DNA from: Desulfobacteraceae bacterium
GTDB lineage: Bacteria; Desulfobacterota; DSM-4660; Desulfatiglandales; Desulfatiglandaceae
Reading direction: 5' to 3'
NCBI GenBank assembly: GCA_013203065.1
Contig: JABMQV010000284.1
Location: 1 to 14,705, forward strand
DNA: 14,705 nt
Shown here: positions 8,527-14,566 of the stretch, one piece after another
How the letters are laid out: every line of letters begins with the position of its first letter
Numbering within the stretch: position 1 is the stretch's first letter
The notes under the pieces: generated by a model
What the model saw: only the letters and a program-made list of their open reading frames with translations
Database searches by the model: none
Told to the model about the DNA's origin: nothing
Made by a program: the position numbers and the translations under genes

Positions 8527-10392
8527 TCAATCAGCGGCTGAGATGAGTTCCGCCACAGGCTCCTTATGGAAGACCTGATAGATAGCAACAGGCCTTTCTC
8601 TGCCTTTAACTGCAACCACATCCAGCACCCTCATTGGGTAGGCTTCCCGTAGCATATCCTTCGTCTGCTTGCTTATGAGTATGTATGAATTGAACTCCTT
8701 GGTGAGTCCCTGGATTCGGCTTGCAAGGTTTACGGTATCGCCCAGGGCAGTGTAATTCATCCTGCTGGCTGTACCCATGGTTCCAACCACTGCAACCCCG
8801 CTGTGTATCCCCACACCTATCTTAATCCCTTCCATATTTTCCATAAGATTTATCATCTCAATGGCACTCTTCACGGCCCTATCCGCATGGTCCTCAACCT
8901 CCAAAGGAGCATTAAAAATGGCCATGATGGCGTCTCCGATGAATTTGTCCACCAGACCGCGTTGGTTCATAATTGTCTCGGTCAAGGGCCCCAGTGTATC
9001 ATTTAATATGGTGATCACCTGTGCCGGGGGCAGACGTTCGGACAGCTTGGTGAAATCCCAAATATCGCTGAAGAGACACGTCACAATCCTCTCCTCGCCA
9101 CCAAGATTCAGGCCATGAGATCTGCTGACAATCGTATCCAGAACTTCCTTCGAAACATAGGTTTGAAAACATCTCCTGATAAATTTGGCATCTTTGTCCA
9201 CTACAAAGAGTCGATATCCTCTTGTTCCCAAAACGGCCAAAAGCAACGCCAAGGTTGGCGTGGACATATTGACGAGTATGGACCATCTGGAAAATAGATA
9301 TAGATTCACCCCCAGAAAGGTAGCCAGCAATGCAACCCAGAAAATTGTTGACCATAGGGGGGACAGTCGGCTTTCAGCAACTCCCACCAGAAGGGGGAAA
9401 ATGATCACGAGAAACAGCGCGAGCAATTTGGTGCTTACACCTTCAACGATAAAATCTTTTGCAACAATATTGGCCGTAATGGTGGCGAGGACTTCGTTCC
9501 CCGGTATTAACGGCGAGGTGGGGGTGGGTTTGAAATCTCCGATGACCCTGTCCGTCAACCCAAGGAAGACAATCTTGCCGTGCATATCCCATTTTCCGGT
9601 CATGAGATCCGTGACCCCGATGTGAGGGACAGTGAATTCCGGCCCATAGAAATTGATCCTCAGGCTCCCATCCGGACCAACGGGAATCTCAATTTCTCCT
9701 ACCTTCAAGGATAGAACTCCGATACCGTCAACTACACATGAACCCCTCTCTCCTTCGAATTTCTCGACCGCGGCAAGGCTTATAAAGGGGACTGCGTACC
9801 CATTCAAAATGCCTACCAGGTGGCTCCTCCTTATGATACCGTCCCGGTCCGGAAACACGGTGAAAAAACCCTGGTGAGCTTTTGAGCGGGAAATCTCCTG
9901 GCTGGACGCTTCCACTCGGTTAAATTCGGATAATAATTGAATGTGCTCTACCCCCTGGAGTGGGGTTTTTAGGTCCAAAGCTACCTGACGCAGTTCAAAG
10001 GGAGGCATTGTTCCACCGGGGGAAGATTCCTTCAGAAACCGATAACCCAGGACAATCTTCTTCCCTTTCAATACGTAAGATAAATCTTTGTCATGGGCTG
10101 TGGGGTTTGACATGACCATGTCGAGAACGATGACCTCTGCCCCGGCCTCATGGATTTTTCGTATAACGGACGCGACAAAGTCCCTACGCCAGGGCCATTG
10201 CCCATAGGCTTCAATGTCCTTGGGGCCAACCGTGACCATCATCACCTCATCAGGACACAAACGGTTGCCCCTTAAGCGAAATTTCAGGTCTGTGATGTCT
10301 TCTTCAAGGTACGTGAGAAAGGATAAACCGCTGAAATGAATTGCCAGAGAAACAAGAGAGGCAAGAAAGGAGATAATAATCAGCCTTTTCAT
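8527..10392 (-). CDS. CHASE2-domain class III adenylate cyclase
   Basis: A 621-residue membrane protein that senses something outside the cytoplasm and makes cAMP inside. An N-terminal membrane segment (4-26) is followed by a periplasmic CHASE2 domain (about 28-318, with the family-type DIEAYGQWPWRRD at 59-71). Three membrane helices follow (about 321-340, 344-366, 371-390), then a class III cyclase catalytic domain (about 430-608). Metal-binding Asp443 (FSDIWDF) and Asp487 (GDAIM) are present. Lys483 and Thr548 sit at the purine-specifying positions, arguing for ATP rather than GTP. The transition-state pair Asn555 and Arg559 (VNLASR) is intact, so the enzyme should be active. The start codon overlaps the fecR stop by 4 nt, implying coupled translation and a shared signalling role. 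Confidence 0.95.
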   Translation of the reverse strand: MKRLIIISFLASLVSLAIHFSGLSFLTYLEEDITDLKFRLRGNRLCPDEVMMVTVGPKDIEAYGQWPWRRDFVASVIRKIHEAGAEVIVLDMVMSNPTAHDKDLSYVLKGKKIVLGYRFLKESSPGGTMPPFELRQVALDLKTPLQGVEHIQLLSEFNRVEASSQEISRSKAHQGFFTVFPDRDGIIRRSHLVGILNGYAVPFISLAAVEKFEGERGSCVVDGIGVLSLKVGEIEIPVGPDGSLRINFYGPEFTVPHIGVTDLMTGKWDMHGKIVFLGLTDRVIGDFKPTPTSPLIPGNEVLATITANIVAKDFIVEGVSTKLLALFLVIIFPLLVGVAESRLSPLWSTIFWVALLATFLGVNLYLFSRWSILVNMSTPTLALLLAVLGTRGYRLFVVDKDAKFIRRCFQTYVSKEVLDTIVSRSHGLNLGGEERIVTCLFSDIWDFTKLSERLPPAQVITILNDTLGPLTETIMNQRGLVDKFIGDAIMAIFNAPLEVEDHADRAVKSAIEMINLMENMEGIKIGVGIHSGVAVVGTMGTASRMNYTALGDTVNLASRIQGLTKEFNSYILISKQTKDMLREAYPMRVLDVVAVKGRERPVAIYQVFHKEPVAELISAAD

Positions 10393-11450
10393 TGGCCGGG
10401 CAATTTTTTGAGGATAGACAGGACATTTTCCCTGAACTTGCCGTGGGGGTAAAGCTGCAGGTATTGTTCCAAGGTCCTCTTTGCGTTATCAGAGGCATTC
10501 AAATGGTAATATATGAGCCCCATATAGTACAGGGCCGGTTCTGCAAACTTCGTCTCACCGTATTTGCTGACGATGGCTTCAAAATCTTTTAGGGCAACCC
10601 TTTGTTCTCCCATGAACGTAAAAGAGATCATGCCTCTATTGAGCAGACATTCCCCTTTGATGCGTTTCAGGCTTGCGACGAAGTATCCCAAAGAGCATAA
10701 TTTCCGTGCTTCTTGAAACTCTCCCCTATCAACCATATAGCTGGCGTAGTTTAGGTTCCAACGAGCGACGATGTTGTTGAGATCTTTCTTTTTTGAAAAG
10801 CCAGGCGGAATTGTAAGATCGCAAAATTGCTCAACGTCTTTTACCAGGCGTGTTAGTTCCTCATTTGATTCTATGGCCTCGGGCGCCAATGGGGCAATCC
10901 CTTCACCACCCTGGCTCATCATCACTTGGTCCAGTCGGATTGTATCTCCACCAGCGGTGAAGGAAATAGTGCCTTCCTTGACAAAGACCGCGCTTGCCTT
11001 TGGCGTGGCAAGGAGCAGGAGATCAGTGCCTCTCACCCCTAAAACGGCATTTTGTGTCATCACTGAAAAACCGCCGTGAAGAAGCCTTCGTATGATGCTT
11101 CTGAGGGTTCCCTTTTGCACATGGATGTTTGAACGTTTTTTGCCCGGAGGAGGCCCAAGCTTGATTTCGCTGGAAGGACCTATCAAAATGCTGGCTTCTT
11201 CTGCCGTGATCTCAATTTTCCCCTCTCTCGTTACAACGTAGTCTCCCTGAAACACCCTCATCCCGGGGCGGGCCGGCTGGCCGTTTACGCTAACCTCTCC
11301 ATTGATTTGGGTTATGGTTCCAAAGGGAATCTGAATTGGAGGACCTTTATCGGACGTGCCCTGAGATTCGCTTGCATGAAACAGAATCACAATAAGAAGG
11401 GTTACGAGAAAGGGCTTAAGCTTCCAGAATAACGGCCGAAAAAAAGACAT
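10389..11450 (-). CDS. Secreted FecR-domain protein with C-terminal TPR-like repeats
   Basis: A 353-residue exported protein. An N-terminal signal peptide or anchor (hydrophobic 13-25) is followed by a FecR-type beta-rich domain (about 45-185). It includes GEVSVNGQPARPGMRVFQGD and the hallmark TQNAVLGVRGTDLL (132-145). The C-terminal third (about 225-350) is helical with tetratricopeptide-like units, best seen in FAEPALYYMGLIYYHLNASD and the following helix pair. It has no anti-sigma part, so it is not a classical FecR regulator of iron uptake. FecR-like proteins next to CHASE2 cyclases suggest a periplasmic partner that presents or gates the signal, which is an inference. The start at 11450 has GGAGGGG close upstream. 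The stop overlaps the cyclase start. Confidence 0.88.
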   Translation of the reverse strand: MSFFRPLFWKLKPFLVTLLIVILFHASESQGTSDKGPPIQIPFGTITQINGEVSVNGQPARPGMRVFQGDYVVTREGKIEITAEEASILIGPSSEIKLGPPPGKKRSNIHVQKGTLRSIIRRLLHGGFSVMTQNAVLGVRGTDLLLLATPKASAVFVKEGTISFTAGGDTIRLDQVMMSQGGEGIAPLAPEAIESNEELTRLVKDVEQFCDLTIPPGFSKKKDLNNIVARWNLNYASYMVDRGEFQEARKLCSLGYFVASLKRIKGECLLNRGMISFTFMGEQRVALKDFEAIVSKYGETKFAEPALYYMGLIYYHLNASDNAKRTLEQYLQLYPHGKFRENVLSILKKLPGQ

Positions 11451-12834: not shown

Positions 12835-13599
12835 CTATCTTTCCTTCAACTGCTTTATTTTACTCACTATATCGGGAAGCACTTCACCCGCTTTTCCCTG
12901 AATCAGCACGTCGCTCTCTTCATCATAGGGGGTCTCTGACAGATTGACGATGGCCAGAAATGAACCATTTTTTCTGGCATAGCCGGGCATGGCTGCAGCA
13001 GGGTGAACAAGCAGGGTAGACCCCACAACCATGAAGAATTCCGAATTCCGGGATAAGGCCGTTGCTCTTTCCACCTCATCCACGGGCATGGCCTGCCCGA
13101 ATGAAATGGTATCCGATTTGAGATAGCCGCCGCAGTCACATTCCGGGGCCGAATCTCCTTCCCCTATGCGTTTCTGCACATCATGTATGGATATGATTCT
13201 TCCACAACTCATACAGCGTGTCCTTCGGGTATTGCCATGGAGTTCAATGACCTTCTCGCTCGGAACTCCGGACTCCTGATGCAGGCCATCAACGTTCTGG
13301 GTGATTACTGCCTCCAGCAAGCCCATTTCATGGAGTTCAGCAACCGACAGATGAGCGGGGTTTGGTTTGGCCTTCATAAGATCGGGATAAAACGCCGCTT
13401 TCCGACGCCAATATTCTATCCGAGCCTCCCGTGAGGACATGAATTCGTCAAAATACACGGGCCGGTATCTATCCCATATACCGCCCTTGCTCCGGAAGTC
13501 CGGAATCCCGCTTTCCGTTGATATACCGGCACCGGTAAATACAACGTTTTTTCCACCTTTTACAATTTCCCGGGCAAGGACGGAAATCTTCTCTTCCAT
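12835..13599 (-). CDS. Sir2-family NAD-dependent protein deacylase (sirtuin)
   Basis: A 254-residue sirtuin that would remove acyl groups from protein lysines using NAD, releasing nicotinamide and O-acyl-ADP-ribose. All core motifs are visible: GAGISTESGIPDFR (23-36) for NAD, TQNVDGLH (100-107), ELHGN (119-123) with catalytic His121, and VGSTLLVHPAA (192-202) in place of the usual GTS loop. A zinc ribbon is formed by Cys129, Cys132, Cys154 and Cys156, with a tight C-x-C second pair. Tyr and Arg two helix turns after the NAD loop (WRDRYRP-like region near 42-47) could suit longer or acidic acyl groups, but this is uncertain. An in-frame start at 13647 is possible, but ATG 13599 is preferred: GGAAAGGTGG precedes it and the N-terminus then matches the family. 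Confidence 0.93.
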   Translation of the reverse strand: MEEKISVLAREIVKGGKNVVFTGAGISTESGIPDFRSKGGIWDRYRPVYFDEFMSSREARIEYWRRKAAFYPDLMKAKPNPAHLSVAELHEMGLLEAVITQNVDGLHQESGVPSEKVIELHGNTRRTRCMSCGRIISIHDVQKRIGEGDSAPECDCGGYLKSDTISFGQAMPVDEVERATALSRNSEFFMVVGSTLLVHPAAAMPGYARKNGSFLAIVNLSETPYDEESDVLIQGKAGEVLPDIVSKIKQLKER

Positions 13600-13717
13600 G
13601 ATGTTTACCACCTTTCCTAAGCCGTTCGAGTCAACCACTACCCCCAAAAGGATCTCTTGAACAGATTACTTCACCCCGATGTTGCATTAGAATTTACCTG
13701 GATTCACGAAATATGCT

Positions 13718-13863: not shown

Positions 13864-14550
13864 TCACTTTGCAGTGTCCAACTTGGCGGCAGCGTGGGTC
13901 TCACGATATATCAAATTTTCTTTGAATACCTTGTCAAAATCGGGCGGCAGCGAATTCTTGACAAATTCATTTTCCATCAATGCGTCGGACCAGGTCTTGA
14001 CCAGCGGAAACTCCCTGAGGAGACCCGAATTGACTAATTTCTCAACCATACCAAATCGTTGCAGAAAGGGTGCATAGGCTGCATCAACAAGGCACAACGT
14101 ATCTCCGTTGAAATAAGGGCCATCATTACCGCGCTCCCTGTCGATCGCCCCTTCCAGTTTCGCTACCATCTCGGATAGCTTCTTCAGGGCGACAGTTTGT
14201 GATTCTTTGCTCTTGGCGTAATTGAACTGGCCAAAGACCCGTGAGCACTCAGGCACGAAGTCGGTCCACGCCCGGTTGTGGGCCCGTTTGATGGGGTCTT
14301 TGGGGTGCAGTTGGGGCTCGATAGTTTCGTCAAGATACTCAACGATGGCGTTAGATTCAAACAACGCGTCATCGTCCACCTTCAGCACCGGCACCAATCC
14401 ATGGGGGGAAATTGCCAGCAACCAATCCGGCGTTTCACCACGTTCCAAATAGGTTACCTCGAATTCCATCTCCTTTGCACGCATAACGATCACGGCGCGC
14501 TGAACCCAAGGTCAAACCTTGAGGCTGATCAAATGAAATTTTTTGGCCAT
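13864..14550 (-). CDS. Glutathione S-transferase-like selenoprotein (Sec at residue 13)
   Basis: The 228-residue product has a thioredoxin-fold N-terminal domain (about 1-80) and an all-helical C-terminal domain (about 88-215), the normal GST size. Codon 13 is TGA (14514-14512), in the sequence SLKV-U-PWVQRAV. Relatives carry the catalytic cysteine of a CPWVQR/CPFVQR motif here, so the codon should encode selenocysteine. Further GST features: GLVPVL with cis-Pro54, ESNAI (Glu65-Ser66) for the glutathione gamma-glutamyl group, and LVDAAYAPF with Asp156 in the helix-capping box. ATG 14550 has AAAGGAG 9 nt upstream. An in-frame ATG at 14580 lacks such a site, and starts after the TGA (GTG 14493, ATG 14484) lack both a site and the first beta strand. 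The final stop is also TGA but falls at the family's normal end. A sequencing error or decay of Cys to stop is the alternative. Expected role: thiol/selenol conjugation, reduction or peroxide removal. Confidence 0.82.
14472..14511 (-). promoter_or_regulatory. Candidate bacterial SECIS element
   Basis: Immediately after the in-frame TGA the message can form a hairpin. GCGCGC (14500-14495) pairs with GCGTGC (14482-14477), six pairs with one G-U, enclosing a 12-nt loop that begins CG. CCTT right after the TGA (14511-14508) can pair with AAGG (14475-14472) to lengthen the structure. The loop begins 18 nt after the TGA and has G among its first two bases. Both fit the known rule for bacterial SECIS elements, which bind SelB with Sec-tRNA. 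The fold was found by eye. Confidence 0.6.
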
Positions 14551-14559
14551 TATTCGATT

Positions 14560-14566
14560 CTCCTTT
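14560..14566 (-). promoter_or_regulatory. Ribosome binding site fixing the GST selenoprotein start
   Basis: AAAGGAG on the minus strand ends 9 nt before ATG 14550. This site decides the start codon. It shows that translation is set up to begin upstream of the in-frame TGA, which would be pointless if the TGA were an ordinary stop after 12 codons. Confidence 0.8.

Follow-up and report, generated by a model that had tools for sequence, protein, structure and literature searches.

A glutathione S-transferase gene with a predicted selenocysteine codon at the catalytic position and a candidate SECIS hairpin downstream

The gene and its reading frame

The window (the whole stretch of DNA that was analysed, 14,705 nucleotides) contains on its minus strand a glutathione S-transferase (GST) gene encoding 228 residues (13864..14550), running from an ATG at 14550 to a TGA at 13866-13864. 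The frame from 14550 to 13864 translates as MAKKFHLISLKV*PWVQRAVIVMRAKEM..., and its sole internal stop is a TGA at codon 13 (14512..14514, minus strand), predicted to be a selenocysteine (Sec) codon from the column of TGA and Cys codons found in its relatives. The motif around residue 13 is then MAKKFHLISLKV-U-PWVQR. A Shine-Dalgarno-like AAGGAG (14560..14565, minus strand) lies 9 nt 5' of the ATG. We could confirm the coherent N-terminal frame with a ribosome binding site and a single TGA break that a preliminary description of this DNA had reported. Translated with C for the internal TGA, the protein matched PF13409 (GST_N_2) over residues 12-76 with an E value of 1.2e-16, and the same protein, again with C for U, matched PF13410 (GST_C_2) with an E value of 5.7e-7. 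Sec13 lies inside the GST_N_2 domain, and the UPWVQR motif has no second Cys, i.e. there is no UxxC. The TGA had been placed at the redox-active Cys position, and in an alignment with a GSTO1 chain (8qll) it does fall on the Cys of the CPFAQR motif.

Under translation table 11 the open reading frame starts only at a GTG at 14493, codon 20, which gives an N-terminally shortened GST. The expectation that an ordinary annotation would drop the active site is borne out by this start and by database relatives, which also start past the TGA.

TGA and cysteine codons at position 13 in related genes

Two sets of related genes were read as DNA. The first set, drawn from one genome per GTDB species by a scan with six exact peptides, gave 54 loci, 53 of which reach codon 13 (L053 stops short); 28 have TGA and 25 have TGC or TGT. 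The second set comprised 199 genomes from the order of G002, which was chosen since G002 is a TGA host; there were 38 matches at E <= 1e-40, and the 30 loci read out of these had TGA in 17 and a Cys codon in 13. When both sets and the window were combined and duplicates taken out, 76 distinct genes remained, with TGA at codon 13 in 44, TGC or TGT in 32 and no other codon in any. Cys had been expected in this column of GST homologues, and a TGA or a Cys codon was indeed found there in 76 of the 76 genes. The final stops of the 43 TGA genes other than that of the window were TAA in 20, TAG in 20 and TGA in three.

Among the 120 listed of 5097 database homologues, 88 have Cys at this position, two have Trp and 30 begin past the motif. 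The nearest listed relatives are P0002 (99% identity), P0003 (87%), P0006 (80%), P0005 (78%), P0004 (76%) and P0007 (75%). Five of these six (P0002, P0003 and P0005-P0007) are annotated from ten residues past the TGA, while P0004 carries Trp at the Sec column. The preliminary description had named close homologues starting past codon 13 as evidence against Sec. Such homologues do exist, but we see no refutation in them, because gene callers take the first start codon after a TGA and the late starts are an effect of gene calling.

These late starts do bear on a different possibility, namely that a shorter GST-like protein without the catalytic residue is made from GTG 14493 or later. The table 11 frame and the gene calls in databases begin at this GTG or further on, and 30 of the 120 listed homologues start past the motif. 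We regard such a short protein as very improbable. Judging from the model described below, such a product would be without the strand at residues 5-10 and the start of the helix at 14-25, and the AAGGAG stands 9 nt before ATG 14550, whereas none was seen at the usual distance before GTG 14493. Furthermore, residues 5-8, ahead of the TGA, are YHLI or a close variant in all 44 TGA genes (exactly YHLI in 34), a conservation that would be unexpected if this peptide were untranslated.

A conserved hairpin downstream of the TGA

A putative bacterial SECIS hairpin with a six-pair stem (GCGCGC / GCGUGC) was located at 14477..14500 on the minus strand; its apical region CGUGAUCGUUAU (14494-14483, minus strand) begins 17 nt past the UGA. 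The codons CAG CGC GCC GTG, counted +4 to +7 from the Sec codon (14491..14502, minus strand), form a stretch that is frozen in the TGA genes and that makes up the 5' side of the stem, with the partner GCGYGC eighteen bases downstream. These four codons were present in 44, 43, 44 and 44 of the 44 TGA genes, respectively, and in all 29 of a smaller, initial group of TGA genes. In the 29 TGA genes, codons +4 to +7 alone were single-codon among 44 near-invariant degenerate columns; in the 44 TGA genes, three of 42 such columns were single-codon, and all three lay inside the +4 to +7 stretch. The same columns in the 32 Cys genes had CAG in 23, CGC in 23, GCC in 19 and GTG in two. Part of the variation in the Cys genes is amino-acid change (18 have Ala at +7 and five have Ser at +6), and codons also vary where the residue is kept, with Val at +7 encoded by GTC in 12 and GTG in two, and Ala at +6 by GCC in 19, GCG in six and GCA in two. 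All six pairs of the stem were complete in 42 of 44 TGA genes vs five of 32 Cys genes (Fisher p ~2e-13, a value that ignores kinship). The AT-rich TGA genes L073 and L074 retain the GC-rich stretch, which would be hard to explain other than by a role of the RNA. One TGA gene (L069) deviates at two of the hairpin codons. Two Cys genes, L019 (5001-5669) and L045 (5001-5564), keep CGC GCC, with GTG changed to GCG and CGT changed to CGG.

The loop starts with C-G-U, 17 nt past the UGA, in agreement with the bacterial SECIS model as outlined in a review, in which one of the first two loop bases is a G and the loop lies 16-37 nt from the UGA (PMC13188914). The numeric limits quoted there, with which the window hairpin agrees only in part, are a loop of 3-9 nt, a stem of 4-16 bp and a minimum free energy of <= -7.5 (PMC13188914). 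The window hairpin folds with a 12-nt open loop at -7.2 or with a 7-nt loop and a bulged C at -6.4, and the best fold of the 24-nt hairpin, at -8.5 kcal/mol, has the 3-nt loop UCG, whose first two bases include no G. A strict, bulge-free scan with these limits found no match in the window; it matched 33 of 44 TGA genes and 27 of 32 Cys genes, and so does not discriminate between them. Folding against synonymous shuffles gave mean z values of +0.1 to +0.45 for 29 TGA genes and -0.3 to -0.5 for 25 Cys genes, so that the TGA genes were not the more stable, and the window against dinucleotide shuffles was unremarkable (z of -1.65, -1.25 and +0.58 for three cuts). Rfam at its gathering thresholds gave no match in the window. 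Since the energy tests do not single out the TGA genes, the case for a SECIS element rests on codon conservation.

This conservation also bears on whether the gene is a pseudogene or contains a sequencing error, with a Cys codon mutated or misread to TGA. TGA is one base from TGC and TGT, and in a lone sequence such a change would be indistinguishable from a Sec codon. We consider it extremely unlikely here, given that TGA occupies this codon in 43 more distinct genes, that relatives on other contigs (99, 87, 78, 80 and 75% identical) are annotated from just past the TGA, that the remaining frame is intact and that the downstream hairpin is frozen in the TGA genes only. In spite of its apparent stop, the gene is almost certainly intact.

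Selenocysteine machinery in host genomes

The genomes that carry these genes were searched for SelA, SelB, SelD and tRNA-Sec. For the first set, 49 hosts were counted, 27 with TGA and 22 with Cys (the hosts of L014, L041, L048 and L049 are outside the count). SelB was over the cut-off in 26 of 27 TGA hosts vs 11 of 22 Cys hosts, SelA in 24 vs 13 and SelD in 24 vs 12, while a tRNA-Sec of at least 64 bits was found in 24 vs 12. All four components were present in 19 of 27 TGA hosts vs eight of 22 Cys hosts, and at least three were present in 26 vs 12. The 64-bit line for tRNA-Sec is one that we drew ourselves, in a gap in the scores, with other matches reaching at most 54 bits; at the Rfam cut-off of 47 bits 43 of the 49 genomes pass, and weaker matches occurred everywhere in 14 control genomes. 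In the second set, SelB was found in ten of 15 TGA hosts, two of seven Cys hosts and three of 18 genomes without a match, and either SelB or tRNA-Sec in 13 of 15, two of seven and four of 18, respectively. Because Sec machinery is also present in at least half of the Cys hosts, the host data alone are no proof of how the codon is read, and they bear on the window gene only indirectly.

Several hosts depart from the general pattern. The TGA host G040 was without SelB, SelA and tRNA-Sec, but had a SelD with an in-frame TGA; since its SelD itself has this TGA, the absence of the other genes more likely reflects an incomplete draft. In two further TGA hosts, G181 (L063) and G235, both tRNA-Sec and an above-cut-off SelB were missing, and such genomes are mostly drafts. 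G146, the host of L069 with its altered hairpin, had a clear tRNA-Sec and no SelB over the cut-off. L063 and L069 are a pair of TGA genes, and their hosts, G181 and G146, are both without SelB over the cut-off. Of the Cys hosts, G018 (L019) had tRNA-Sec, SelA and SelD, with SelB not over the cut-off, and G043 (L045) had SelA together with a SelB whose frame contains a TAG. Together with these hosts, L019 and L045 look like genes in which Sec is in the process of being lost. Of the 41 above-cut-off SelD places listed, 15 contained one in-frame TGA (G002, G011-G014, G025, G027, G028, G031, G037, G038, G040, G041, G044 and G047), so that SelD is itself a selenoprotein in those genomes.

Decoding of the UGA as some residue other than Sec, e.g. 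tryptophan, is also barely credible: two proteins within the Sec clade of the tree described below (P0004 and P0029) have W at the Sec column, but TGG was found in none of the 76 genes read as DNA, the W in those two proteins would fit code-4 gene calling on a TGA (a true TGG is also possible), the window gene uses TGA as its final stop, though just three of the 43 other TGA genes do so, and the hosts possess tRNA-Sec and SelB. The pseudogene, tryptophan and short-start readings were rejected on the conservation of the TGA, the absence of TGG and the kept N-terminal peptide.

The earlier proposal of Sec at the catalytic position is supported by the pairing of TGA with Cys at codon 13, by hairpin codon conservation confined to the TGA genes and by the Sec machinery of the TGA hosts. 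Taken at the level of sequence, these data make it highly probable that the UGA at codon 13 is decoded as Sec by SelB and tRNA-Sec, directed by the hairpin, giving a full-length GST.

Phylogeny and neighbouring genes

A GST tree was produced with IQ-TREE from 92 rows, using the residues after codon 13. The window gene and P0002-P0007 form a clade (100/99) nested within a clade of 31 rows (100/96). This larger clade consists of 17 TGA genes (the window included), 12 late-start proteins, two Trp proteins and no Cys genes. The Cys labels require five changes on the tree, at least three of which are forced by well-supported branches, and the Cys genes L019 and L045 group with the TGA genes L071 and L017. 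Under a provisional midpoint rooting, the topology would suggest a single gain of Sec and several reversions to Cys. More tentatively, and with somewhat less confidence than we would need to call it probable, Sec might be ancestral in the whole of this proteobacterial GST subfamily, with a single origin, spread between phyla with the SECIS element as a unit (into an uncultured deltaproteobacterium among others), repeated reversion to Cys and decaying SECIS remnants in some of the Cys genes. The 28 TGA genes of the first set, which was obtained with the exact-peptide scan, come from genomes that are by title Alphaproteobacteria, Gammaproteobacteria or plain Proteobacteria. L035 and L041 come from drafts titled Bordetella parapertussis, and their GST groups with environmental Betaproteobacteria; these titles look doubtful.

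Next to the GST gene lies a gene for a Sir2 deacylase (12835..13647, minus strand; PF02146, 1.3e-40). Its relatives were searched with 12835-13602, and the 11 organism-named among 120 listed comprise eight from Deltaproteobacteria, Desulfobacterales, Desulfobacteraceae or Thermodesulfobacteriota, two from Pseudomonadota and one from Proteobacteria. Further along the window (8527-11450, minus strand), a FecR/TPR-like protein is followed by a CHASE2 adenylate/guanylate cyclase with a 4-base overlap. The cyclase has few close relatives among the listed matches (92%, 63%, then 37%), the closest organism-named of which are from Deferribacter (37%) and Thermodesulfobacteriota (34%). Plausibly, then, the neighbouring genes fit a Desulfobacterota-like host, probably an uncultured deltaproteobacterium, and transfer of the Sec-GST gene between lineages appears likely. 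When ten window neighbours were sought in the 54 first-set loci (flanks of up to 5 kb), only weak cyclase matches were found, in five loci, and thus the surroundings of the GST gene are not common to its relatives. ARAGORN found no tRNA in the window.

Structure and proposed mechanism

An AlphaFold2 model, made with Cys for Sec, had the GST fold with a mean pLDDT of 92.6 and a pTM of 0.90. In this model residue 13 is immediately N-terminal to a helix at 14-25 and is preceded by a strand at 5-10. A fold search gave the best E values to Tau GSTs, followed by Omega GSTs and dehydroascorbate reductases (DHAR); the TM-scores of the Tau and Omega matches were alike. The plant Tau GSTs share with the window protein 24-28% identity and a TM-score (query) of 0.76-0.83. 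Tau enzymes use Ser at the catalytic position, and Ser is opposite residue 13 in the alignment with PdGSTU1. Omega GSTO1 and plant DHAR, which appear among both the sequence and the fold matches, resemble the window GST in a Cys-type site where helix 1 begins (CPFAQR vs UPWVQR), and differ from it in having Cys in the place of Sec. An N-terminal extension before strand 1 is a hallmark of the Omega class. The window GST is without some 20 residues that GSTO1 has ahead of that strand, with residue 6 of the query aligning to residue 24-31 of the GSTO1 chains, some of which may carry tags. Membership of the Omega class was set aside on the absence of this extension.

The Omega GSTs run a cycle in which the catalytic Cys is first bound to glutathione in a mixed disulfide, and a second glutathione then regenerates it (PMC3621891); because their Cys is at the same place we propose a selenenyl-sulfide cycle for the window protein. 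SelB and tRNA-Sec would read the UGA as Sec, guided by the hairpin beginning 11 nt past it, and Sec13 would be placed at the N-terminus of helix 1 in the thioredoxin-like domain, the place of the catalytic Cys in Omega GSTs and DHAR. The substrate that the selenolate attacks could be glutathionylated, peroxidic or electrophilic in some other way; Sec13 and glutathione would then be joined in a selenenyl-sulfide, from which a second glutathione would free GSSG. By this analogy the Sec-GST would be a glutathione-dependent reductase or thiol transferase with a selenolate cycle and not a classical conjugating GST, an assignment that we favour with modest confidence. A peroxidase has been made from a Tau GST scaffold through directed evolution and chemical modification (PMC10812501).

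Relation to known selenoproteins

The Sargasso Sea study of 2005 counted GST, with four sequences, as a new selenoprotein family (PMC1088965), and GST-like selenoproteins appeared again in the GOS data in 2008, where the table gives the figures 12, 8 and 1,036 beside GST (PMC2398784); we take 12 and 1,036 to be the Sec and Cys sequences. GST is also in the selenoprotein lists of reviews from 2022 and 2026 (PMC9312934, PMC13188914), the latter placing it among selenoproteins whose functions are largely uncharacterized. As early as 2004, E. coli was used to produce a GST into which Sec had been engineered (cited in PMC10778597). By title and abstract, a literature search with most subscription journals outside its range returned no biochemistry of a natural bacterial Sec-GST. 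The window protein shares with the GST-like family (COG0625 / PF13409) a GST domain, Sec in place of Cys, the absence of a listed UxxC partner, a bacterial SECIS element past the UGA and widespread Cys homologues (PMC1088965, PMC2398784, PMC13188914). The likeness is one of description, and the available portions of these sources name no deltaproteobacterial host for the family. The window gene therefore belongs to an already known bacterial selenoprotein family.

The preliminary description had also held that Sec-GSTs have been noted only rarely. This view did not stand, as GST is a listed family and as 17 of the 30 loci read in the survey of 199 genomes from a single order carried the TGA; Sec-GSTs are thus not rare. 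Databases store such enzymes without their active site, as in 30 of the 120 listed homologues, and the consensus CAGCGCGCCGUGAUY followed by GCGYGC provides a handle for finding seleno-GST members. Containing both Sec and Cys forms, the subfamily is suited to testing the benefit of selenium in a Cys-type GST.
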